IMG/VR virus record: IMGVR_UViG_3300030098_002554
Span: 1 to 32,398 of that record
DNA length: 32,398 bases
From: a virus
Strand: one strand, 5' to 3'
This document shows positions 1,914 through 30,143 of the stretch, in pieces. Each line of letters begins with the position of its first letter. The stretch's first letter is position 1. The notes beneath the pieces were generated by a model. The model had not been told where the DNA came from. It saw only the letters and a program-made list of their open reading frames with translations, and did no database searches. A program made the position numbers and the translations under genes.

Positions 1914-4900
1914 TTATTGTTGTCCTAAGTTAAAAAGATCATTAGAAACTCCAGCTTTAGGAATCGTTTCAGTAGACATATTTAATAAATCATCTATTTG
2001 GTTATTTAACGCAGCATCCTTAATTCTAGAAAATTTATTTTCCGTTTGAATTTGCGCTATTTCTTTATTAAGTTGTATATTCATTTCAAGTTCTTCTAAT
2101 TGTGCTCCTTCAGGCATACTATTAAAAGCTTTAGAAGCAACTCTTTTTTCTAATTTTTGATTTAATCCAGCCCATGTTTGAGCAAAATACTGGTGTTCTT
2201 CTTGTGATAACTTAACTCCACTTATAGTTGAAACAAGTTCAGGACCTTGTATTGTTGAGTCTAAATAAGCTAATTTATTCATTACAGCACTCTTTGATCT
2301 TGTTCCTCCTGCAAGTGGATTAAACATACTATTAAATACGTTGGACATAACTTCTAAAGGTTCAATATGTAGATCATCACTATAAGAAGTGCCTGGAAAA
2401 AAGCGTTTTTCTCCAACTAAATTAATAGAGGCTGGTCTTTCTTTACCTATACCAGGAATTAAGGATAAAGAATTAGCAAATATCTTATCTAATTCCTGAA
2501 CACTAGCTTGGTATCCTGCTGTAATAGGATCACTAGCTTCTAGATCTTCTTGTTTAATTTTAGTTTCTCTAACTGGATTAAATCCTCTATGAAGACCACG
2601 TCTAAAACTAGAATAAAAACTTGCAGTAGGATCAAGAGCTGTAGCTAATTGAGTAAAACCTCTACTCATTCCCCTTTGATCGCCTGTAACTACATCAATC
2701 ATATTACCAAAACCCTGTAAGTAATGACGATCTGTTACCATTCTAGTTATACCAACAACTGCATTAGCAAAAGTAGCTTGATAAGCATCAAATAGTTCTT
2801 GATCATACCCTGATTTAGCACCATGTTGTGTTAGATTTATTAGAGATTTAGCGAGATCTGCCATAACAGTAGCACCACTCATAACAATACCTAGAGGATC
2901 AAGTCTATTATAATTAACCCAACCTTTATCGGTCATCCATGAGTACCAAAACGGCCCACCCATAGCGTCTTCTTTTCTTCTTTTAAGATCAATATCAGCA
3001 GGGGGAGCACCAGTAAAGGTTCCTGTCATAGCCAAACCAATAGCTGTAGCCCATATCATATTACCGGTAGCTATCTTAGCTTCTGCAAGTTGTCTAATTG
3101 CAGGATTCTGAGACTTCAAATCTGCCATTAAAGAATCACTCATTCTCCTGATTAAAGGAGTACGTTGTCCTGCATGAGATAGCAGATTAACTGGAGTTTG
3201 AAAGAAAGGTATAAATACTCTCATTAACCCTGTAGGGTCTCTATCAATGAGTTTTTTAAATGTCCTAGACATTCCTCCTACTTGGGTAATATCTCCTGTA
3301 TTAAAATCAATTCGATCAACTTCTGGTAATCTATTAGTGAACGTATTAATCTCAGAAAAACTTTTGGCTTGTTCCATTAAATCAGGATGATCTAATATAT
3401 TATTTTTAATGTCAGCTACAGTTTCAGCTAATATACGTTTATCACCAATAGCTCCTACTTTTGATTTAGCTTTTCTATAAGCCAAAGCATCAAGTTCAGC
3501 CCTATAACTTAACATTTTAAAAGATTCGTCAGCAGATAATAGGGCTCTACCTGGAATATTTACAACTTTACCAAAGTAATCTATAGCTTTTGCAAAATTA
3601 CCTTGAGCATTAAATAATTCAGGAGTGATAGCTCTATCATGTGGCTTAATCATATCTAGTTTAACTGCACCATCACTAGGACCATGTTTTAAAGAATAAT
3701 GAAACTGTCTAAAGAAATCAGGCAGAGAAGCCACATAAGACCATGTTAATTGTGCAGCTTCACCTATAGTTACACCATCTTTAGATACATTAGTAAGTCC
3801 TGCATACCAACGCTCAATAATACTAGACATAATAGCAGAAGTATTACCAGCCATATTAATTACACTAGTTTTAATACTAGATAAAAGACCGTTAATATAT
3901 ATTTCAGATAAGACATCTCTAGTTTTAGCTTTAGCAGACATCATAGTACTTTTATATCTAGCTCTAGTCTGCATTTGTTCTGCTGAAAATATTTCATTTA
4001 GTTTCTTTTCAGCTTTAAAAGCTTTAATCTGATCCATTATCTCTTGTTCTTTTGGAGTCCTAGTTCTTTTAGAGGTTTTATCTTTTCCTGCTTTTAAGTC
4101 CTTTAAATACTTTTCTAATCGTTTAATATTTCGATCAGCTAGTTGTTCTTCAGTTAAAGGCTTTCTAGGAGCACGTTCTTTAGCTATTCCAAGGTCTTCT
4201 TTAGCTTTTTTGATTTGTTCTTTTAAAGCTTTCTCTTCTTCTGTAATAACTCTTTTTCTTTTAGGATCAGGAATTTTACCAGCATTTAAATCGTCTAGTT
4301 CTTTTTGTAATCTTTGAATATTTCTTTCAGCTAATTCTACATCATCTAATTCTTTTCTAAATCTTTCTGGATTTTCTTTACGTTCAAGTGCTGCAATTTC
4401 ATCTAACTTAACCATAACTGAAGCACGTTTTTTACCTAATTCTGGTGTAGAGGTAATAATATCGTGCATCATTTTAGCTTTCATTAAATCAGCTTGACTA
4501 GCTAAATCTCCCATATCAGCAACGTGTTTAAACTCAGCTAATCCTCTACCAAAAGCTGTACTTAAACCACTAGCTCCTCTTGCTGTTTCTACTGAATTAA
4601 CTGTTGCTTCTGTGAAAGCTTCTAAATCTTTTGGGTCTTTACTTTTTAAATAAACTCTACCTAATTTAAGACCTTTTTGTACTTGAATATCAGTTATAAG
4701 TTTAGAAGATTGTATATAAGCTATAGCATCTTCTACGCTACTTGTAACAGTTTTAAGATGTCTAACAAATGATTGAGGGTCAACTCCCCAATACTTAGTA
4801 ATCCTATTAATTTCTTCATCTAGAAACCTTCTGTTTGCTTCTTTAGTTTGTTTACTAGCATTTCTAGGAAGCTTATCTTTCATTATTTCGCCTAACTGCT

Positions 4901-6074
4901 TAATAACTGAAAGACGTTCTTGAGGGGAATTAAGTTTAGATATATTAAAAGGATTAAGAAGATCTAAATCTATGTCATCTAAAGTCTTACCTTCTATAAC
5001 ATCTGTAAATATTTGGACATATTTATTCTTTTCTTCATCACTAGCTTTATTGTAATGTGAAGCAAAATCTTCAACTTCTTTATTAACTTCGTTATAGATA
5101 GCAGCTTCTTTAGAATCTAATTTAGAGCTAACAAAAGCAAGTTCTTCTTCTGGTAGATCTCGCATAGGATCAATGCGATTATGTACTATATCTTCTGCTA
5201 CATTGTCAGCGAGTTGTTTTGTTAATCCTCTATCATCTACAGCTTTTTCAGCATCTTCAAGTTTAGGAGGAGTAGTTGGAGTTTCTTTTGATCCAGCAAC
5301 AAATACAGTATCTCCTACAGATGGATCAGTTTTGATAAATCCTGTATCACCTTTAGTAATATTCTTAACAGCACTTATTCCTGCTTTAGCAGTACCACCA
5401 ATTAATTTTATAAGTCTTTCAAATAAGACAGTACCTATAACACCTGTTAAGGCATTTTTAGCTCTAGCTATAACCTCTGGATCATCTGATTTAACTGCAA
5501 GATATTCTTTAACTGCTGCACCAGCTCTTGAATCTCCTGAAATACCTAACGCACCTATAGCAAAATTAAATAAGTTACCATCTTGAGGATCAAAAGCAAA
5601 AGCATCTACAGGCATACCAGCAAGCATAGAGTCAGTAGCAGCTTTTAATTTAGGAGATTTAGACAATATATTTAAACTTTTAGTTCCTAATGAAACAGCT
5701 TTTACAGCACCAAGATAAGGTATTCCAAATTGACCACCAGTTTGAACTATGGCACTAAAAGTATCATCAGGATCATTTAAGTTAAATGGATTTTCAGGAC
5801 CACCAAGAGCCGTAACTACTTCACCTACACCTCTAGCACCACCTACAGCAATATCAACAGGGATCTCAAAAATATTTTGTAAGATACTATCAGACTTATT
5901 TTCAGCTTGTTTTTCTAACTCTTCTTCAGCTTTAGGAGCTGTAAATTCTTCATGGGCTTCTGTATAGTCATCAAGTTGTTGCTGTTCAGAACCTTCATAA
6001 TCGTTTCTTATATTACTATAATTATAAAAATCCTTAGTGAGACTTTCAACATCAGGTTTAATTATATCTACCAT
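1914..6074 (-). CDS. Internal virion (ejection) protein, T7 gp16-like
   Basis: 1386 residues, the largest gene and in the gp16 position between the gp15-like protein and the tail fibre. T7 gp16 (1318 residues) is released from the capsid core and forms part of the conduit for DNA across the cell envelope. Unlike T7 gp16, the N-terminus shows no transglycosylase motif; that domain ends the upstream gene. Residues about 570-700 are a highly charged coiled coil holding two related repeats, beginning LAERNIQRLQKELDDLNAGK near 577 and LADRNIKRLEKYLKDLKAGK near 643. A hydrophobic stretch (MIWATAIGLAMTGTF) lies in the C-terminal half. ATG 6074 abuts the previous stop, with AAAGGGG upstream. Assignment rests on order, size and architecture more than on motifs. 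Confidence 0.82.
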   Translation of the reverse strand: MVDIIKPDVESLTKDFYNYSNIRNDYEGSEQQQLDDYTEAHEEFTAPKAEEELEKQAENKSDSILQNIFEIPVDIAVGGARGVGEVVTALGGPENPFNLNDPDDTFSAIVQTGGQFGIPYLGAVKAVSLGTKSLNILSKSPKLKAATDSMLAGMPVDAFAFDPQDGNLFNFAIGALGISGDSRAGAAVKEYLAVKSDDPEVIARAKNALTGVIGTVLFERLIKLIGGTAKAGISAVKNITKGDTGFIKTDPSVGDTVFVAGSKETPTTPPKLEDAEKAVDDRGLTKQLADNVAEDIVHNRIDPMRDLPEEELAFVSSKLDSKEAAIYNEVNKEVEDFASHYNKASDEEKNKYVQIFTDVIEGKTLDDIDLDLLNPFNISKLNSPQERLSVIKQLGEIMKDKLPRNASKQTKEANRRFLDEEINRITKYWGVDPQSFVRHLKTVTSSVEDAIAYIQSSKLITDIQVQKGLKLGRVYLKSKDPKDLEAFTEATVNSVETARGASGLSTAFGRGLAEFKHVADMGDLASQADLMKAKMMHDIITSTPELGKKRASVMVKLDEIAALERKENPERFRKELDDVELAERNIQRLQKELDDLNAGKIPDPKRKRVITEEEKALKEQIKKAKEDLGIAKERAPRKPLTEEQLADRNIKRLEKYLKDLKAGKDKTSKRTRTPKEQEIMDQIKAFKAEKKLNEIFSAEQMQTRARYKSTMMSAKAKTRDVLSEIYINGLLSSIKTSVINMAGNTSAIMSSIIERWYAGLTNVSKDGVTIGEAAQLTWSYVASLPDFFRQFHYSLKHGPSDGAVKLDMIKPHDRAITPELFNAQGNFAKAIDYFGKVVNIPGRALLSADESFKMLSYRAELDALAYRKAKSKVGAIGDKRILAETVADIKNNILDHPDLMEQAKSFSEINTFTNRLPEVDRIDFNTGDITQVGGMSRTFKKLIDRDPTGLMRVFIPFFQTPVNLLSHAGQRTPLIRRMSDSLMADLKSQNPAIRQLAEAKIATGNMIWATAIGLAMTGTFTGAPPADIDLKRRKEDAMGGPFWYSWMTDKGWVNYNRLDPLGIVMSGATVMADLAKSLINLTQHGAKSGYDQELFDAYQATFANAVVGITRMVTDRHYLQGFGNMIDVVTGDQRGMSRGFTQLATALDPTASFYSSFRRGLHRGFNPVRETKIKQEDLEASDPITAGYQASVQELDKIFANSLSLIPGIGKERPASINLVGEKRFFPGTSYSDDLHIEPLEVMSNVFNSMFNPLAGGTRSKSAVMNKLAYLDSTIQGPELVSTISGVKLSQEEHQYFAQTWAGLNQKLEKRVASKAFNSMPEGAQLEELEMNIQLNKEIAQIQTENKFSRIKDAALNNQIDDLLNMSTETIPKAGVSNDLFNLGQQ

Positions 6075-9002
6075 TTACTGAAGAACCCCTTTATCTATAA
6101 TATTTTGAACATATTTCTGAGTAGCTTTCGGAAAATAAGGAAAGATGTCAGAGAATATATTAGGGTTTTTACCATCTTTTTTAGCTTTATTCGTGGCAGT
6201 ATTAAATGCTTTATTAGACATATTGTATTTAGCCATAGCAAATTTCATAGGATGATCAACCCCTTGTTTTTTAAATCTATCTTGGTCACTTTTGAATAGA
6301 AGTATTCCTGCTCTAATATTATCCTCATCATTATCTAGAATATTCTGAGCTTTTTCTTCTCTAGTTTTACCTTTAAATTTAGAAGGATCAATATCCACAA
6401 TATCTAAAGCAAGTTTTTTAGTGTGTATTTGAACTAAACCTTTGGCTCCAGATTTAGGATTAACTATTCCTGATATTCCAGAACTTTCTTCCTGTATAAT
6501 AGCGTCTATTAATTCACGACTAAAACCTTCGTCATCAGCGACAGCTTGAGCTAAAGTCATAGACTTAGCACCTTTAGCTTTATCAGGTTTTACAGCTATT
6601 TTCTTAGGAGCTTCAGCACCTTCCGCTTTCTTAGTTCCCAAACCAGGACCTTTAATAACATCAAGAGCCTTTTTAACACCTTTAGTTGCTTTTTTAGCTG
6701 TGGGTTGTATAGCTTTAGAGGCAGCTTTAGAAGCTTCTTGTAAGTCTTTATTTAATTGTTTTGGAAGTACATCAAAAAAATCTACAAATTTATCCCAAGC
6801 AGAAGGCTCCTGAAGTTCCATAGGTTGTTGTATTTCAGTTGCTCCTGCTATTTTTAAAGTAGCTAAATGTCTTCTAACTGTTGGATCAGGATTAGAAATC
6901 TCTGCAATCTCTCGTATTTTTGTAGGTACTCTTAAATTAAAAGGATTATCACCAATGCTAGTAATCATCGCTGCTCTTTTAGCATAACTAGCTTCTTTAA
7001 ATTCTTTTTGAAGTTTTACAATTTCTTTTTTCTTTTCATCAAAAGCCTTTAATTCATCTGTAGCCTTTTGTACATAATCTTTTTTAGCTTCTGGATCAGT
7101 AGAAAATAAACCTTTTTTAGAATTTATAATAGCTACAGGTTCAATTGTTGTTAATTCTGTACTATGTTGATTTTGTCCAGCCTGTATTTTTTCGCCAGTA
7201 GTCTTTACTTCGCTTTTACCTGATTCATCAACAGATGTCTTCTTATCGTCTCTTTTAATTCCAACTAAATTATCTATGAGGGCTTGAGCTTGATTTTTTG
7301 CTTCACTAATTAGTTCTTTTGAATAAACCGGAACATCAGGATTATTTCTAATTAAATCTTCTAATATAGAACCAAAAGCCACCTCAGCATCTAATAGTGC
7401 TCTTATTTTTAACCCTACTTCACCTTTAAGTCCTAATTTTTTCTGGATTAATGGATCAGATAAAACTACCTTCTTATCTCCAAATCGTTCTGCAAGTTTA
7501 TTGTATTTGTCAAGTAAATTATATTGTTTAAGAACCCCTTCTGCTGCTTTACCAAAATTCTTTTTTAGTTGTACGATAGGTTCTTGAGCCATAAACTCTG
7601 CTCTTCTTTTACCTCGTTTTGTCTTTGGGTTAGCTAGATTAACAGCTAGTTTTATAGTCTCAGGGTTAAAACCATTCTCGGCTGCATAAGCTCGGAACCC
7701 CATCTCATCAAATTTATCTGTTTCTACATTATAATATTTATCAGCTCCCTCTTGAATTAGTTGTGAAAACTCCGGATGGCTTGCATTTTTTGAATGTTTC
7801 TTTTTAAAGAAAGTATCTATAAATTTTAAGACTGCACGTTGTTCAGAAGGATCATTAATAGAAGCAGCCAATGCTTCAGCTTTTTCTCTAGTATTTACAC
7901 GTTCATCATTTTTTAACAAACCATCCATTACATAATTAGAAATTCTATCATCCCTAGCTTTTTCATTGTTAGTTCGTTTCGTCTCTAAATCTTTTAAAGT
8001 AGCTTTTACACCTTTATTGTAATCGTTATTTATAGTTTCTAATACTTTACCAAAATCAGATTGAGAGTCTATTTCATCTCGTAATGTTACATCTTTTGTA
8101 CTCCCTTTAACATTAGATATAATATCTCTCATCATTCCTTCGTTAACTAACTCAGGATTTTTACCTATCATTTTGATTAATTCATCACCAACTATAGTTA
8201 ATGCTGTAGCTTTGATGTCCTTTATATCAACTCCTAAATTAGTCCTAGAGATTTCAACTACTGCACTATTAAACCACTTAGAGTTGATATGTTTAGCAGT
8301 CCAACCAGCATGAAATTTACTAAGTTTTTCAGCATATTGACTAGGAGATAACTCATTTCCTAACTCATCAGTATCAGAAACTTTAGGCATAAGTTCTAGA
8401 GCAAAAGCTAAGTGTTCTTTAAATAACTGTCTAAAAGAATTAGCAGCTGTAGCCATAGTTTCTTGTTTCTTGTCTTTAGCTAAAAGAACATTAGCTTTCC
8501 CCATGACTTGATTAAACATGGTATCCATGTCTAAAAACATCTCGCGAGCATTAACCCTAGAAATACTAGCTTTGCCTTGATTTAAAATTCCTAGTAATTG
8601 GTTTTTAAAAGAAGTTGCTCTAGTTTTTCTATTAGTACGATTGTCGCTTAAAATATCTGATCCTTCAATTAACAGGAAATCCTGCATTTGTTGGATAACC
8701 CTACCTTTAGTGATTCTATCTACAAATTTATGATAAGCTAATTGAGCTTCAGGCTCTAATCCACCTGGCATTTCTTTTTCATAAGCTGCTGCTAATTCAG
8801 CAGTGATAGTATCGTTATGAATTTGATCAGCTTGTTTTGTTCTAGCTAGTCTTGTAAATGAATCAGAAAGATCAGATAAACCTGAAGATAATCTCTGTTC
8901 ATTTGCAGAAGTATCTAAAGGCTGTTGCACCACTACATTGGCAACAGGAGCTGTTAAATCAGTCCTTATAGGATCAACTTTAAAAATATTATCTTCAGCC
9001 AT
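6075..9002 (-). CDS. Internal virion protein, T7 gp15-like, with C-terminal lytic transglycosylase domain
   Basis: 975 residues against 747 for T7 gp15. The N-terminal 600 or so residues are helical and charged, in the gp15 position. A Lys/Ala/Pro-rich linker (about 740-810) leads to an SLT-type transglycosylase domain at about 820-965. It shows IIQEESSG with likely catalytic Glu839, then SGAKGLVQI, an acidic helix containing NIRAGILLFK, and AMAKYNMS near the end. The domain would cleave peptidoglycan locally during DNA ejection. In T7 the equivalent domain is at the gp16 N-terminus, so its linkage is switched here. The start overlaps the previous stop as TAATG with AGAGGA upstream, and the next gene begins immediately after the stop. 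Confidence 0.87.
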   Translation of the reverse strand: MAEDNIFKVDPIRTDLTAPVANVVVQQPLDTSANEQRLSSGLSDLSDSFTRLARTKQADQIHNDTITAELAAAYEKEMPGGLEPEAQLAYHKFVDRITKGRVIQQMQDFLLIEGSDILSDNRTNRKTRATSFKNQLLGILNQGKASISRVNAREMFLDMDTMFNQVMGKANVLLAKDKKQETMATAANSFRQLFKEHLAFALELMPKVSDTDELGNELSPSQYAEKLSKFHAGWTAKHINSKWFNSAVVEISRTNLGVDIKDIKATALTIVGDELIKMIGKNPELVNEGMMRDIISNVKGSTKDVTLRDEIDSQSDFGKVLETINNDYNKGVKATLKDLETKRTNNEKARDDRISNYVMDGLLKNDERVNTREKAEALAASINDPSEQRAVLKFIDTFFKKKHSKNASHPEFSQLIQEGADKYYNVETDKFDEMGFRAYAAENGFNPETIKLAVNLANPKTKRGKRRAEFMAQEPIVQLKKNFGKAAEGVLKQYNLLDKYNKLAERFGDKKVVLSDPLIQKKLGLKGEVGLKIRALLDAEVAFGSILEDLIRNNPDVPVYSKELISEAKNQAQALIDNLVGIKRDDKKTSVDESGKSEVKTTGEKIQAGQNQHSTELTTIEPVAIINSKKGLFSTDPEAKKDYVQKATDELKAFDEKKKEIVKLQKEFKEASYAKRAAMITSIGDNPFNLRVPTKIREIAEISNPDPTVRRHLATLKIAGATEIQQPMELQEPSAWDKFVDFFDVLPKQLNKDLQEASKAASKAIQPTAKKATKGVKKALDVIKGPGLGTKKAEGAEAPKKIAVKPDKAKGAKSMTLAQAVADDEGFSRELIDAIIQEESSGISGIVNPKSGAKGLVQIHTKKLALDIVDIDPSKFKGKTREEKAQNILDNDEDNIRAGILLFKSDQDRFKKQGVDHPMKFAMAKYNMSNKAFNTATNKAKKDGKNPNIFSDIFPYFPKATQKYVQNIIDKGVLQ

Positions 9003-9586
9003 TATGAGAATCCTCTTGCTTTAACTTTACCATCTGCATCAGTATAATAGCCAAGATCAGTGTACTTCTCAATGCCTAAACCTATAGTTTGAGCAACTAA
9101 TCCAGTAGCATCGGGTATAGAAGTTAGACCAGAAAATGCTTTATTATTTCTACTTAAAGTTTCTAAAGAAACATTTTTGCGTCTTGTTTTGAAGTCATTA
9201 AGTTCTGTTTGAAAATTTAAATCTTTTCTAGCTAAAGCTTCTAACCCTTGTCTTTCTATATTTTGTATTCTTGCTAAACCAGAACCTATAGTAGAGTCTC
9301 CACCTTGAGATTCCATTTGAGCCATAGCTGAGGCTTTAGAAGCTCTAATTTTTTTATATATAGCTGCAACATCAAAAGCTCGTTTAACTGTAGTTAGCAT
9401 CTGTTCTTCATTAATATGAAGATAAGAATTGTAAGCTAATTGATTATTTAATGCAGCTTGTCTATTAGCTGTATCTATACGAGTGTAATGATCTCTAACA
9501 TCTGCTTGAAAAGAGGCTCTTTTGTTTATTGCACCCATCGCAAAAGATGCCATCTGTAGCATTTCGTATCCTTTAGGAAGTGCCAT
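9002..9586 (-). CDS. Internal virion protein, T7 gp14-like
   Basis: 194 residues, almost the length of T7 gp14 (196), in the gp14 position. It opens MALPKGYEMLQMASFAMGA and is helical throughout, with an Ala/Gln-rich middle (SKASAMAQMESQGGDSTIGS) and a conserved-looking RIQNIERQGLEALARKDLNF helix. T7 gp14 leaves the capsid first and forms the outer-membrane part of the ejection channel. The start overlaps the upstream stop as TAATG, and the stop overlaps the next start the same way, so the three internal-protein genes are likely translationally coupled. No catalytic motif is visible. The assignment uses order, length and helical character. Confidence 0.75.
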   Translation of the reverse strand: MALPKGYEMLQMASFAMGAINKRASFQADVRDHYTRIDTANRQAALNNQLAYNSYLHINEEQMLTTVKRAFDVAAIYKKIRASKASAMAQMESQGGDSTIGSGLARIQNIERQGLEALARKDLNFQTELNDFKTRRKNVSLETLSRNNKAFSGLTSIPDATGLVAQTIGLGIEKYTDLGYYTDADGKVKARGFS

Positions 9587-10032
9587 TAGACTAACCTACA
9601 GAATTCATAAAATTTCACTTTATTAATAACCTTTTCTCCAATTATCTTAAAGCCACACCATTTGATCCATTTAAGGTGTACTTCATTTCTAGAGTCAATA
9701 ATATTACAGAGATGTGGAAATACTTTATTCATCTTGTCCACCTCTGATCTAGATTGTTTAAGAAAAGCAGTCTTGATCTTAACAAGACCTTCAGTACCTA
9801 ACATCCATACTTGTCCACACTTATCTGATAACGGAACTACACCATAGATACCTACAGTTCTACCTCTATTATCTATAATAGTTCTGCATATATAACTATT
9901 ACCAAATGCTAAAGATAAAGCCTGATCTACTTTGTGACCTAATGTTTCAACTTCACGTTTATCTTCATATCTCATATTTAAATAGAGATAAGTTAAGTCA
10001 TCTAACTGCGACTTTCTATGGTACGGCTTCAC
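9586..10032 (-). CDS. GNAT-like protein in the T7 gp13 position
   Basis: 148 residues starting with GTG at 10032, overlapping the tail tubular B stop as TAGTG; GGGAGAAGG lies just upstream and supports this start. T7 gp13 (138 residues) occupies the same place, is needed for virion assembly, and resembles GNAT acetyltransferases. The fold pattern is visible here: an N-terminal helix region (LDDLTYLYLNM), beta strands around RTVGIYGVVPL and QVWMLGTEGLV, a helix, then HLKWIKWCGFKIIGE, which is the C-terminal GNAT-like 'x-x-GF' element. A canonical acetyl-CoA binding loop is not evident, so catalysis is doubtful. It could be an assembly factor with a dead acetyltransferase fold. Confidence 0.65.
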   Translation of the reverse strand: MKPYHRKSQLDDLTYLYLNMRYEDKREVETLGHKVDQALSLAFGNSYICRTIIDNRGRTVGIYGVVPLSDKCGQVWMLGTEGLVKIKTAFLKQSRSEVDKMNKVFPHLCNIIDSRNEVHLKWIKWCGFKIIGEKVINKVKFYEFCRLV

Positions 10033-12464
10033 TACCTTCTCCCTACTGTCCTCACTACATAGTTACCTTCCCAATCTGCGCCAGTAAAAGCACAAGGAAG
10101 ATAAGAGTCAGACACAAGTTCTATCTTTAAATCTTTAGCATCAGCTAATATTAACTTTTTAAAATTACCGGTTTCAAAAGGTATAGTACCAATCTGATTT
10201 AAAGGTGAACCTAAGATTCTACCAGTAAATGTATGAATAAAAGCATCTCGACCAGGAGCTGTTACTCTCATATTAAAGAAACCAGTTTTAAAGTAATCTA
10301 CATTAAACTTACGGATCTTTAAGACACCACCAGATAAAGAACTAAGTCTACCTTGTACCTCAGTCTTGATTGTGGGCTCTGTAAACTCATATAAGAACTG
10401 ATATTCTTTACCTATCCATACAGGATAAGTAGAGAAATCTCCAGTAGCTACAAGGTTTAATGGAGAGGTTTGAGTAACTCCTTGTATCAGTCCACCTTCG
10501 CTACCTTCCCACTCAGCTCCATATATTAATCTAAAAGTAGAATCAAAGTCATCAGGATAAGGCATAACCCATCGTGTAACATCCTGTCCTGAATCGTATA
10601 CTCCTTGAATAGATGAGAGTCTATCCAGATGTGGTTTAAAAGAGAGTTGACTACTGGATTCTGCTAGTCCTACTAAGTTAGCATCCTGTAAAGACATCGT
10701 ATCTATGTAAGTACCATCAGGTCTTACTATAATAAAATAAGCTACATAGTCTATTACATATAAACCTATTACTTTTTCTTCTTCTTTAAATGTCCACTTA
10801 GACCACGAACTAAGTTTCTTAGTTCCAGCTTGAAATAAATACTTATAATGGAAAACTTCATTCTGATTTTCGTCAGACAGTACAAACAATGCTTCATCAT
10901 GTGATACAATTTCAGTACCTCTACCTTTGATATAACTTGGAACATGAGATGTTACATTCTCAGCTGTCTCTTCTTGTAAGTCTTCAACAACACCAAATTC
11001 TCTAATGGTAGTAAATCCATCGTTGGCATCAGAAAAGTAAATCTTTCTACCATTTAATCTTGGTTCTATTCTATTATCATGCTCATATTCTGTAAGTAAA
11101 GAAAACTTAGCATTAGTAGGAGTAAGCCCACCAGCAGCAAATTCAGACAATTGGAATTGCCCAAAGTTACTAAAGACAATTAAGTTCTCATTGAAAGGTA
11201 TAGCATGGTGTAGAATACTTACTTCATTGGTAGGAGCTGCTAAATCTATTACATCTGTATCTAATAAATCTGTAGCAGTAGTAGCATAGAAATTAAAATA
11301 CTCACCTAATTCAGATAAAATAATATTTTCATTAGCCAAGAATCCTAGACGATTCTTGTGGAAAAACATATCATTTATTGTATACCCTATAAAACCAGGA
11401 TCAGGTGCTGTTTCCTCATCTCCTGCTGCTCTATCAACCCATCCAATTTGATCCAAGGTAAAAACACTTTCTCCAAAATCAGTTGAGAAAGAAGCATCCC
11501 AAGGATCTTCACTAGTTCTTACTAGCTTTAAAGGCATTGTAGCAGGATCAATAGAATTAGCTAATCCTGGTTCTACAGTTTCTACCCATTCACCTACATC
11601 TTCGTCTGCGGAGTTATTATGTTTAATCCAATAATCATCTGTACCACTACTAGGATCACCAGTAATCTTAATAGTATAACCATCTTTAGTTCTAGCTGGT
11701 AGATCCGTAAAGTCTACTACAGTATCTTTAATTGCAACTAAATTCTGTTCAGGCGCGTTACAATGTAATGTAAAATCAGCCCCATTAATTCTGGTTAGAT
11801 GTATATTACTACTACCAAACTTAGTGATAGTAAAAGTAGAACCTATAGCTGTAGTAAGATCACTATAAATATCATCAATCTGTGTCTCTGCATCATTACT
11901 AGAAGTTACTGTAGATACAAGAGTACCATCTACATAGACTGTCATAGTAGAAGCATTAGTAGCTTGCTTTAGAAATATAAGTCCTTCAGGATTTCTAGAA
12001 GTTCCTAATGAAGAACTCTTAGCTGTTACTTTAGTTTTATTTAAGATAAACGTATAGTCAGCTATAGAGAATAAATGTAAATTATCTCTAGCATTAGTGG
12101 TAGTTATATAAGCTAACTCATCTGAGGTAATACCATTAACACTTTGTTTTATACCATCTAAGGTACAAACATCTATTTCTGTTTGTGTAAAGTCTGTACT
12201 AAAAGCTTCATCAAATTGACTAGAAGTAATCGTAACTACATATCGTTCTGTAGCATCTCTATTAATGAAGTGAACATTTTGTTGAGTATCGGTATATGGA
12301 GTGTGCTTTTTAAGATGTTCTAATGGAGGTCTTTTTTTAAGACCTTCAGCTACAGTGGGTAAACCGTTTTCCTGTACTTCACACTGAGAAGCAAGTCTTA
12401 AACTAGGTGGTTGCTGTGAAACCCCATTGATTAGATTGCTTATTTGTTCTGTAATTAGTGGCAT
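10032..12464 (-). CDS. Tail tubular protein B (T7 gp12-like)
   Basis: 810 residues; T7 gp12 is 794. The N-terminus carries the family signature LINGVSQQPPSLRLASQCE, and the rest is beta-rich with long loops as expected for the nozzle of the short tail. Motifs recalled from the family include FHKNRLGFLANENIILSELG and FSNFGQFQLS in the centre and YPVWIGKEYQF towards the C-terminus. It forms the hexameric nozzle below the gp11 gatekeeper ring through which DNA leaves. ATG 12464 directly follows the TAG of the upstream gene, with AGGAAAT as ribosome site. Its stop overlaps the GTG start of the next gene. No oddities seen. Confidence 0.95.
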   Translation of the reverse strand: MPLITEQISNLINGVSQQPPSLRLASQCEVQENGLPTVAEGLKKRPPLEHLKKHTPYTDTQQNVHFINRDATERYVVTITSSQFDEAFSTDFTQTEIDVCTLDGIKQSVNGITSDELAYITTTNARDNLHLFSIADYTFILNKTKVTAKSSSLGTSRNPEGLIFLKQATNASTMTVYVDGTLVSTVTSSNDAETQIDDIYSDLTTAIGSTFTITKFGSSNIHLTRINGADFTLHCNAPEQNLVAIKDTVVDFTDLPARTKDGYTIKITGDPSSGTDDYWIKHNNSADEDVGEWVETVEPGLANSIDPATMPLKLVRTSEDPWDASFSTDFGESVFTLDQIGWVDRAAGDEETAPDPGFIGYTINDMFFHKNRLGFLANENIILSELGEYFNFYATTATDLLDTDVIDLAAPTNEVSILHHAIPFNENLIVFSNFGQFQLSEFAAGGLTPTNAKFSLLTEYEHDNRIEPRLNGRKIYFSDANDGFTTIREFGVVEDLQEETAENVTSHVPSYIKGRGTEIVSHDEALFVLSDENQNEVFHYKYLFQAGTKKLSSWSKWTFKEEEKVIGLYVIDYVAYFIIVRPDGTYIDTMSLQDANLVGLAESSSQLSFKPHLDRLSSIQGVYDSGQDVTRWVMPYPDDFDSTFRLIYGAEWEGSEGGLIQGVTQTSPLNLVATGDFSTYPVWIGKEYQFLYEFTEPTIKTEVQGRLSSLSGGVLKIRKFNVDYFKTGFFNMRVTAPGRDAFIHTFTGRILGSPLNQIGTIPFETGNFKKLILADAKDLKIELVSDSYLPCAFTGADWEGNYVVRTVGRR

Positions 12465-26967: not shown

Positions 26968-27233
26968 TATAGTTCTCCTTTAATGTAGCGTTCAGCTCCC
27001 CCAAATTCGGGAACTTTAGTTCGTTTACAATCTTGTCGCATAGCATCTACCATATTCATTACGTCTGTAACACTGTACACCTCCCCAAGTTTATGGTTAT
27101 ACAAACAATTAAACACACTAATTATAATCGCGTGTTTCTCAGCTGTAGAGAATTCATGGATAGCATCTACTAAAGCCATCATCCCTCTAGATACTTTCTT
27201 TACATCTGAATTAGCTAAAAAAGAATTCTGCAT
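26967..27233 (-). CDS. Small helical protein between RNA polymerase and SSB, unknown
   Basis: 88 residues, predicted mostly helical (KKVSRGMMALVDAIHEFSTA, then AIIISVFNCLYNHKLGE). The second half has MNMVDAMRQDCKRTKVPEFG. GAGG lies nine bases before the ATG, which sits inside the last codons of the RNA polymerase gene; the stop overlaps the SSB start. T7 has gp1.x and gp2 genes here, the latter an inhibitor of host RNA polymerase. No similarity to gp2 is evident to me, so no function is assigned. Confidence 0.75.
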   Translation of the reverse strand: MQNSFLANSDVKKVSRGMMALVDAIHEFSTAEKHAIIISVFNCLYNHKLGEVYSVTDVMNMVDAMRQDCKRTKVPEFGGAERYIKGEL

Positions 27234-29613
27234 CTTTTACATCCTCAACATTTAATTTACCATAAGTAGGTATCTCCGGTAAACTGAGATCACCTTGTTC
27301 TTCCTTAAATCTATGTAAGACATCTTCCTGATATATTTCAGTAAATGTTTCTCTTAAAATAATTCCTAATCGTTCTATATCACAGGCATGAGTACCAAAT
27401 GAGTCATGTACTACCGAAAAGGATTCTATACCATATTTATCTTTAGCTTGCACTATCGTTTTCATTAAATGGCAAGCATCTAAACTATGTACAAAGTTAG
27501 GAGCAATACCGTTAACCTGTCTGGAAGGATTTATTTTTTCAGCATTACTAGTTCCTGCAAACAAGGAGGCCATCCTTCCATTTATAATCGTTCTAATTTG
27601 TTTAACTGTAGATTTAATATATTTCTGTTTAACAACAAAGCCAGTAGGTAGAGTCCAATAAATAGGTCTCTTTTCTTTATTAGCAACTTTAGCTACATCC
27701 TGTAGCCACTTCATGCCTAACCTACTGGAGACAACCACCCTTCCAATAGCTTCGTAAATATGAAAAGCAAGATATTTACAATGAGGCCACAAATCAGTAC
27801 CACTATCAATACCTGGAAATACCACACCTTTATCAAGCTGTTTAGTAAGTTCTTCATGTATTTGATCCCTCATACCATATAGAGTAGCTCCGTATGGAGT
27901 AGTCATTACTGGACGTTTAACAATGGAACGAGATAAGCAACCACCAGCACCCCATAAAGTATAATTAGAGTCGTTGTCAAGAACCATAGCTTTTTCTGCT
28001 TCTTCTCTGACGATTTCATAGATGTCCTCTGGTTTCTCATGGTTGATAAGGTTAGTTGCAGAGCCCCCAACTTCATCCCTAAGCATAGCGGAAAAATGTT
28101 GGAGACCGTTGCAACTACCATCCACCGTGACAGGAAGATGTGAAACATAATTTTCATTGTTGTTACAACAAACATACTCAAAGCAAGCCCTGAGGAATTG
28201 CCAAGGTTTGTCTGCTTCCATCCATTCACGGTTTCTAAGAGGATCAATACCTACACGCTGTATTAGGTCCTCGTTGTTTTCAGTCCATTCAAATCGGTCT
28301 TCCAAGGATGCCTTATCGAACCCCCAAGTATTGCTGACGTGTACCTTGAGCCATGATAGTCCTGTAGAACCCAAAGTTTTTCCCGAAGCAAACTCCAGCA
28401 AACCTTTCGCGGAATCCTCACCTTGGGGATTGAGGAAGGCTGTGTTGGCATACATACGTCCACGAAAGTCCAGGGTATGAGGGAAATAGATAGCTTTCTC
28501 ATTTTTAAATTTCCTTGTCATCCACATTAGTTGTGCAAACTGGATGCGCTTTGTTTTTAATCTTACATTCTCTGAATGGAGTAGAGTAGCTCTTCTTTTC
28601 CATTCAATTATTTCATCCTTCGTTCCGTTTTTAGGGTATGGCTCTTCCATGTGTCTTTGTCCTGCTTCAGGGATAACCTGACACACTGATTGATTGTCAT
28701 ATAGGGCTTCCATAACCTCAAAGACCTTACTGTTAATTCTCCAGCTCGTTCCCTGTACGATATTGGTTGCATGAAACACCTCCTTTAAATTAGTATTGTC
28801 TAATTGTTGAAGATATGCTGCATCTGAAGTTTTAACCAAATTCATATTAGTGTACTGATAGTAACCACCAGTATAAACACTATCCCATTTTCTAGGATAG
28901 ATAAGACAAGGCATCTTAACAGGACTTAATAGTTCACATACACTATTTTTATTATCTATCCACTTCAAAGAAGCTTCTGTAGCTTCTAACCAAAATACTT
29001 TTTTAAATTTACCGGAATGAGTATTACTATGTTTCTTAATTTCAAATAACTTAGTACACTCACAAATAAGCTTAACCAATAATACACCTAACCTGGTTTT
29101 ACTGGAGGTAGACCAATGATGCCACTCTATACCAGCTTTATTCGCGGAGTGTACTAGTACTCGTTTTTGTTTTCTGTAGTTAGTAGTTCTTTTTGATAAG
29201 TCTCTAGTAACTACACCAAATAATGCAGGATTCTCTTTAGCAAAAACTCTAAACCTAGTTTCATCCTCAATGAAGGACCCTACTTCTATAGCTATCTTTG
29301 TTAGTTTAACAGGAGTAGAAAGATGATTAACACAAGCTTTTAAAGCTAAGAAAGCAATCACGTCAGAAGGAATTGAATCCATAAGTAAAGACATGACTTC
29401 TTTTTCACATTGAACTGGAACACCTTTGGTATAATCCAAGATCAACTTATCGATAGCTTTGGTTATTTTACCACAACCTTTTCTTATGAACTGAATACCA
29501 GCTGGAGTAGTAGACTCATGTTTACCGCGCTTAGCATCCAAGTTTTCCTGACGATACCTTTTGACTCCTAAAGCTATCATCTCTTCTTCTAAGAGCTTCT
29601 GCCTGTGCAACAC
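27211..29613 (-). CDS. Single-subunit DNA-directed RNA polymerase (T7 gp1-like)
   Basis: 800 residues from GTG 29613, which overlaps the oxygenase stop as TAGTG with a GGGGG stretch upstream; an in-frame GTG five codons earlier is possible. Catalytic residues: Asp498 in DGSCNGLQHFSA (motif A), Lys566 and Tyr574 in KRPVMTTPYGATLYGM (motif B), Asp737 in VVHDSFGTHA (motif C). The C-terminus DAEFFFS resembles T7's aromatic foot. The promoter-specificity loop region before GIAPNFVHS differs from T7, so promoters will differ too. It transcribes middle and late genes and defines the family. Confidence 0.97.
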   Translation of the reverse strand: MLHRQKLLEEEMIALGVKRYRQENLDAKRGKHESTTPAGIQFIRKGCGKITKAIDKLILDYTKGVPVQCEKEVMSLLMDSIPSDVIAFLALKACVNHLSTPVKLTKIAIEVGSFIEDETRFRVFAKENPALFGVVTRDLSKRTTNYRKQKRVLVHSANKAGIEWHHWSTSSKTRLGVLLVKLICECTKLFEIKKHSNTHSGKFKKVFWLEATEASLKWIDNKNSVCELLSPVKMPCLIYPRKWDSVYTGGYYQYTNMNLVKTSDAAYLQQLDNTNLKEVFHATNIVQGTSWRINSKVFEVMEALYDNQSVCQVIPEAGQRHMEEPYPKNGTKDEIIEWKRRATLLHSENVRLKTKRIQFAQLMWMTRKFKNEKAIYFPHTLDFRGRMYANTAFLNPQGEDSAKGLLEFASGKTLGSTGLSWLKVHVSNTWGFDKASLEDRFEWTENNEDLIQRVGIDPLRNREWMEADKPWQFLRACFEYVCCNNNENYVSHLPVTVDGSCNGLQHFSAMLRDEVGGSATNLINHEKPEDIYEIVREEAEKAMVLDNDSNYTLWGAGGCLSRSIVKRPVMTTPYGATLYGMRDQIHEELTKQLDKGVVFPGIDSGTDLWPHCKYLAFHIYEAIGRVVVSSRLGMKWLQDVAKVANKEKRPIYWTLPTGFVVKQKYIKSTVKQIRTIINGRMASLFAGTSNAEKINPSRQVNGIAPNFVHSLDACHLMKTIVQAKDKYGIESFSVVHDSFGTHACDIERLGIILRETFTEIYQEDVLHRFKEEQGDLSLPEIPTYGKLNVEDVKDAEFFFS

Positions 29614-30143
29614 TATCGCAACCCCCACATAACTAAAGTTTTTCTAACACCGTGAGTGACAGGTGTTACTCTATGTCTCCACCCTGCTGGAAATGAGGTA
29701 AACATCCCAAATTCTTTCTCTACTGAATGTTTACCAAAGCTATTCTCTATTTCCAAAAGGCCACCTTGATACTCTGTGGGCTCACTCAACTGGAGAGTTC
29801 CAGATATTACCCTGTCACTCACGATTTCATCTCTTGCGCCTATATCCCTATGCCATTCATAATGACCTCCTACAGTATATAAACTATATTGAAAAGCTTG
29901 TAACATAGAGATAGGCTCTAGTTGCCAAAGTCTACTGACTCTTTTAAATATCCAAGAAGTTTCTGGATTTTGGTGAACCCAAGCTATTTTAGTATTTCTT
30001 TTATTATGATCTACAGTATCCTGACCTTTAACTAAAACAGCACCTTCTATTAGTTCTAAACTTTTACAATAATCCAGTATAGATTGTAGTTCTTCACTAG
30101 AAAACAAACTACTGTGATGATGTAGGTGCATAGGTTTACGCAT
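29613..30143 (-). CDS. 2-oxoglutarate/Fe(II)-dependent dioxygenase
   Basis: About 176 residues from ATG 30143 (another Met, at 30131, gives MHLHHHSS). The 2OG-Fe(II) core shows GGHYEWHRDIGA (HxD iron ligands), TLQLSEPTEYQGGLLEI, and FPAGWRHRVTPVTHGVRKTL (distal His and the 2OG-binding Arg). This is the PKHD/prolyl-hydroxylase-like phage type. It couples oxidation of 2OG to hydroxylation of an unknown substrate; related phage proteins are proposed to act on nucleic acid bases or proteins. The start overlaps the membrane protein gene by eight bases, and the stop overlaps the RNA polymerase start. It thus lies in the same transcript as the polymerase. Confidence 0.88.
   Translation of the reverse strand: MRKPMHLHHHSSLFSSEELQSILDYCKSLELIEGAVLVKGQDTVDHNKRNTKIAWVHQNPETSWIFKRVSRLWQLEPISMLQAFQYSLYTVGGHYEWHRDIGARDEIVSDRVISGTLQLSEPTEYQGGLLEIENSFGKHSVEKEFGMFTSFPAGWRHRVTPVTHGVRKTLVMWGLR

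Follow-up and report, generated by a model that had tools for sequence, protein, structure and literature searches.

Which subunit of a T7-type ejection complex carries the enzyme that cuts peptidoglycan? T7 has a transglycosylase at the N-terminus of gp16. A sequence-only reading of the locus studied here had placed the motifs of an SLT lytic transglycosylase at the end of the upstream, gp15-like protein instead (residues 820-965), with none in the gp16-like protein, and had explained this by a stop/start boundary that moved past a domain that itself stayed in place. The window, that is, the whole stretch of DNA analysed, comprises 32,398 nucleotides (positions 1-32,398 of a 34,945-base record), and all coordinates below are window positions unless another locus is named. 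Its minus strand holds a T7-like structural cluster in the order gp10-gp11-gp12-gp13-gp14-gp15-gp16-gp17. The cluster encodes a major capsid protein, a gp11-like protein, a gp12-like tail tubular protein B (10032..12464, phrog_457), a gp13-like internal virion protein (9586..10032, phrog_308, E 6.7e-34), a gp14-like internal virion protein (9002..9586, phrog_15746, E 5.5e-4), a gp15-like ejection protein of 975 aa (6075..9002), a gp16-like internal virion protein of 1386 aa (1914..6074) and a T7-type tail fibre. In the tail fibre gene (447-1913), the T7-type N-terminal domain PF03906 is above its cut-off and a collagen-like stretch, PF01391, is below it. We place the virus in the T7-like group because it encodes a T7-type single-subunit RNA polymerase, also on the minus strand (27211..29628).

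We name the two proteins gp15-like and gp16-like on the grounds of gene order, matches to phage profiles and weak fold similarity. The 1386-aa protein matches phrog_6651, 'internal virion protein' (E 1.4e-13), and genes in 33 phage records, mostly annotated as internal virion proteins, at 21-29% identity. Gene order and the phage profile matches set the 975-aa protein between the gp14-like and gp16-like proteins. Sequence searches detected no direct homology to T7 gp15 or gp16: the profile of the gp16-like clade aligned to T7 gp16 with an hhalign probability of 0.6%, a PDB sequence search with the profiles of both proteins returned nothing relevant (for the gp15-like profile, no match at E<=1), and the full gp15-like protein, run by tblastn against phages, matched nothing. 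Gp15-like proteins are described as diverging beyond what sequence searches can detect (PMC8954989). The predicted model of the gp15-like core is almost entirely helical. VIA-align superposed it on T7 gp15 (7k5c_A; Z 7.6, rmsd 5.1, 223 residues) nearly collinearly, with model residues 54-336 on 57-302 of 7k5c_A, and on the PhiM1 ejectosome (8vb2_E; Z 7.4, rmsd 7.5, 231 residues); for helical proteins, scores at the level of both matches can arise by chance. Foldseek with the same model found no PDB match at E<=0.001, and the BFVD viral structure library returned, for example, the 'Internal virion protein' of Ralstonia phage RSB3 (E 7.4e-5, prob 1.00). The gp15-like label is well supported by gene order and moderately by fold.

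Does this protein carry an SLT domain? A Pfam search finds PF01464 at residues 819-946 (6165..6548 by codon positions, minus strand), with E 1.7e-6 and 28.1 bits against a curated cut-off of 21.3 bits; the match spans model positions 4-114 of 117. The score is modest. When the C-terminal 191 aa are searched alone, it rises to 31.8 bits (E 1.2e-7). Lytic transglycosylases of the SLT family release 1,6-anhydro products from peptidoglycan, and SLT domains have as their hallmarks a catalytic Glu before a Ser, a GA.GL.Q motif and a YN motif. All three are present in the gp15-like protein, as E839-S840 within QEESSG (residues 837-842), SGAKGLVQI (residues 851-859; 6426..6452, minus strand) and AKYNM (residues 924-928; 6219..6233, minus strand). 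The predicted catalytic acid, Glu839 (codon 6486..6488, minus strand), pairs with Glu37 of T7 gp16 in a small MAFFT alignment, with Ser840 next to it. A figure legend in PMC8954989 gives Glu37 as catalytic, and Glu839 is likely to be the catalytic residue of the gp15-like protein.

No PF00959 lysozyme was found in the gp15-like protein by Pfam at E<=1, and no SLT in the gp16-like protein, either by Pfam or in a six-frame search of the whole record, whose single SLT is the one described above. On these points the sequence-only reading was borne out: the motifs lie where it had put them, the domain is encoded between the gp15 and gp16 cores, the profile search matches SLT in the gp15-like protein and not in the gp16-like one, residues 820-965 do yield an SLT match and the gp16-like N-terminus has no second one. 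Structure prediction was poor for the SLT domain alone (pLDDT 43.6); a model of the full-length gp15-like protein, built on an alignment of 10 rows, is usable in the core (40-580) and falls below pLDDT 50 over most of 757-975. Searches for kin or a donor of the domain found none among phages (tblastn, even at E<=10), none among viral contigs beyond the contig of L001, and none among genome contigs.

How did the domain come to stand there? We gathered relatives by scanning IMG/VR with gp16-like and gp12-like alignments, which yielded a clade around the window; in the closest members the gp16-like proteins are 77% alike. In a tree of gp16-like proteins (quick method, SH-aLRT support), the window groups first with L103/L104 as its sister (99), next with L105 (99) and then with L002 (100); L106 with L107 and the remoter groups branch further out. 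The program flagged long branches in the four outgroup rows. Gene order, gp16-like protein and gp15-like core are shared by L103/L104, L105, L106, L107, L002 and L025, but the C-terminal domain of their gp15-like proteins is not SLT. The window's gp15-like core aligns with that of L103 at 66% over residues 1-766, with that of L105 at 47% over residues 4-759, and with that of L002 at 52% over 46 residues (720-765), the L002 contig holding just the last part of the core. All three alignments end at 759-766. Counted per 50 residues, identity to L103 is 40-88% up to residue 750 and at most 30% beyond.

The DNA draws the same limits. The conserved core (6778..9002, minus strand) is 78% identical to L103; similarity reaches down to 6778, is gone from 6777 to 6076 and is back at 6075, the base with which the gp15 stop codon ends and at which similarity to L105 and L002 also restarts. 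Across 6076..6777 on the minus strand, about 700 bases that encode a charged linker and the SLT domain, the DNA comparison found no similarity to L103, L105 or L002. The gp16-like ATG adjoins the gp15 stop or overlaps it by one base in the window, L103, L105, L002 and L106; in the window it follows directly. Since DNA similarity stops at 6777 and restarts exactly at the gp15 stop, we read 6076..6777 as a replaced cassette.

What do the relatives carry at this junction? The gp15-like C-terminus of L103/L104 matches phrog_3108, a family of unknown function (E 2.7e-17 for L103). This may be an unrecognised muralytic family, since a few weak tblastn matches are annotated as endolysin. In L103 it lies at 5390-6001, the slot where relatives have wall-cutting enzymes. 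L105 and L106 end in a Phage_lysozyme domain, PF00959 (E 7.5e-14 and 2.6e-5, respectively). The C-terminal lysozyme of L002 is below cut-off (E 0.0018; 4.9e-4 for the domain alone), and the same domain matches phrog_4290, 'lysozyme domain-containing protein' (E 5.1e-5). An endolysin family, phrog_873, is found at the C-terminus in L107 (E 1e-12) and L025 (E 5.1e-11), and LysM in the gp15-like tails of L119 (E 6.1e-14) and L111 (E 1.5e-7), where a weak lysozyme-like match follows (phrog_2083, E 0.0014). Four further members, L028, L112, L114 and L032, have short gp15-like proteins (590-595 aa), and between the gene for these and gp16 lies a separate ORF (245-309 aa). The separate ORFs of L028, L112 and L114 gave no family match; that of L032 matches SLT (E 0.0026) and phrog_3108 (E 2.3e-4) weakly, and is the only place elsewhere in the clade where a window-type SLT was found. 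By eye, the L114 ORF (L114:2992-3768) has a GSAH...D / HLHLH pattern like that of M15 peptidases, an assignment left unconfirmed by PF08291 (0 of 15 records) and by tblastn, which was negative. Over the 18 labelled of the 21 rows of the gp16-like tree, the label of the C-terminal module changes at least eight times, a number that depends slightly on labelling (the LysM of L111 and L119 were labelled separately).

We extended the comparison to a survey of 47 records, made up of 42 of the 80 gp12 loci together with L002, T7, SP6, LKA1 and phiKMV, in which absence means not found by the profiles used. SLT is above cut-off in just three: T7 (E 1.7e-31) and L051, both at the gp16 N-terminus, and the record of L052, for which we infer the same location from the layout of the record, which closes with gp15 and opens with the SLT frame. 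Another four records have SLT-like matches that are weak and fall short of the cut-off. Phage_lysozyme is above cut-off in five records, with L002 as a sixth below it. The domain is at the gp15-like C-terminus in SP6, LKA1, phiKMV and L093, and in a free 137-aa ORF in the record of L100 (G042); in phiKMV and in LKA1, a separate lysis gene gives a further match. CHAP was found in two records, L099 and L100, near the C-terminus of very long gp15-like proteins (L099:10417-14349, 1310 aa; L100:13352-16879, 1175 aa), and phrog_873 in one. Sixteen further records from the gp16-like scan contain no SLT, and three of them (L105, L106 and L117) have a lysozyme, each time in the gp15-like protein. Many members have short gp15-like proteins in which the profiles used found no domain, and SLT is absent from the records of marine phages such as HTVC011P, HTVC019P, P-SSP7 and Syn5.

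The explanation that we hold to be highly probable is that a T7-like gp15-like protein, the protein of the periplasmic tunnel, gained a C-terminal SLT lytic transglycosylase when a cassette was exchanged at the fixed junction of gp15 core and gp16, and that this domain takes over the job of the T7 gp16 N-terminus. Could the boundary have moved instead, so that an SLT which in the ancestor headed gp16, as it does in T7, was put on gp15 by a changed stop and start? The SLT is indeed coded between both cores, T7 and L051 do have it on gp16, and the weakly SLT-like ORF at the junction of L032 suggests that fission or fusion may occur. However, close relatives have unrelated domains at that very junction, the DNA boundaries fit a replaced cassette, and among the relatives sampled from the window's gp16-like lineage, none begins its gp16-like protein with an SLT. 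The window SLT also matches a lytic tail fibre family, phrog_14342 (E 1.8e-5), slightly more strongly than it does phrog_342, which is of the gp16 type (E 3e-4). Compared across relatives, the C-terminal domain appears to have been replaced at a fixed junction and not shifted, so that this part of the sequence-only reading now looks improbable; cassette replacement at the gp15 C-terminus appears to explain the data better.

A replaced cassette could still have lost its enzyme function, the SLT fold being kept as a structural or binding domain. The modest Pfam score, the divergence from characterised SLTs and the failure to find close relatives would suit such a loss, but the motifs and the catalytic Glu are retained. 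Moreover, selection for activity is suggested because relatives put other wall-cutting or wall-binding domains in the same slot, and we consider loss of function a little less likely again than a moved boundary. Finally, the record is an environmental virus contig, in which an assembly or frameshift artefact might have joined the two parts. The frame is open, however, and the same gp15-like/SLT fusion occurs in contig L001, 98.9% identical in DNA over 12,076 bases. Because L001 carries this arrangement too, it is not a one-off assembly error, and we give an artefact hardly any credence.

A wall-cutting domain on a gp15-like protein is in itself known already. The gp36 protein of phiKMV is described with a C-terminal lysozyme, and SP6 gp36 and the PhiM1 OEP with a lysozyme on the gp15-like protein (PMC5380687, PMC11440229); a wall-cutting domain has likewise been published for the gp15-like proteins of K1-5 and K1E (PMC5380687, PMC8954989), and reviewers have already remarked on domain swapping between ejection proteins. 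The window shares this placement with phiKMV, SP6, K1-5 and K1E, but the domain of phiKMV, SP6 and LKA1 is a PF00959 phage lysozyme (C-terminal by Pfam), whereas that of the window is an SLT lytic transglycosylase. According to the cryo-EM account of PhiM1 (PMC11440229), its octameric gp15-like OEP has a lysozyme-like domain at 718-903, described as absent from T7, and its gp16-like TEP is without the N-terminal transglycosylase and has a second, endolysin-like insert. PhiM1 thus resembles the window in both the enzyme domain on the gp15-like protein and the gp16-like protein without N-terminal transglycosylase; it differs in having a lysozyme-like domain instead of SLT, and in the TEP insert, of which Pfam finds none in the window's gp16-like protein. 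The N-terminal transglycosylase of T7 gp16 belongs to the same Pfam family as the window SLT and probably does the same job, but T7 has it on gp16, whereas in the window it is on the gp15-like protein and the gp16-like protein starts without it. Our search, which covered open-access literature, found no report of SLT at a gp15-like C-terminus, nor of close relatives that exchange enzymes of several families at a single junction. What is new is this position of the SLT, along with the rapid swapping of unrelated enzymes at a single fixed place.

How might the fused domain work? In T7, gp14 is described as the outer-membrane pore and gp15 as the periplasmic tunnel, on which the N-terminal transglycosylase of gp16 forms wings; gp15 is an octamer in the virion and a hexamer after ejection, and four copies of gp16 are visible (PMC8954989). 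By analogy, we infer the activity, virion location and timing of the window SLT. The gp15-like protein would be packed in the virion core, with the SLT built into its ring, would be ejected before the DNA and would form a tunnel across the periplasm. Its C-terminal SLT domains would cut the peptidoglycan locally around this tunnel and let the tunnel and the gp16-like protein get to the inner membrane, which would be the job of the T7 gp16 N-terminus. The copy number of the SLT would then track gp15, not gp16. The sequence-only reading had claimed that the enzyme changed its subunit and, with it, its place in the envelope. The change of subunit, to gp15-like instead of gp16, holds; the change of place is a weak claim, as the enzyme is on the same tunnel either way. 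Because the T7 gp16 SLT also sits on the gp15 tunnel, the envelope position is probably hardly altered.

Is the junction of gp15 core and gp16 a dedicated exchange site? We propose so tentatively: the wall-entry enzyme might be swapped there as a cassette, as receptor-binding proteins are, so that it fits the peptidoglycan of whichever host the virus currently infects. The options at such a site would possibly include SLT, lysozyme, phrog_873, phrog_3108, LysM-containing tails, CHAP in more distant relatives, and a separate ORF.

The locus suggests that peptidoglycan cutting, as a step of T7-type DNA entry, is a function that can be detached: gp15, gp16 or possibly a protein of its own can bear the wall enzyme, and its family can differ between viruses as close as the nearest relatives described here (77% alike in gp16-like protein). 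Host-wall adaptation of podovirus entry can be tested by comparing cassette with host, and gp15-like C-termini stand out as a likely source of diverse, unnamed wall-cutting domains. Annotation on the T7 template, in which the enzyme is gp16, can mislabel genomes. The gp16-like genes of phiKMV, SP6, LKA1 and KP34 (L009, L010, L014 and L015) are annotated 'internal virion protein with endolysin domain'. No Pfam family matches any of these four gp16-like proteins at E<=0.01, and the annotation may have been transferred from T7.

Gp16-like proteins of two relatives contain an inserted domain. That of L002 (L002:1113-5669) has it at about aa 282-478, and it is absent from the window's gp16-like protein; that of L025 (L025:11268-16079) has it at aa 295-416, with a match to phrog_14016 (E 9.5e-8). 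By eye, the inserted domain looks methyltransferase-like ('DIGGG...YDPFNR').
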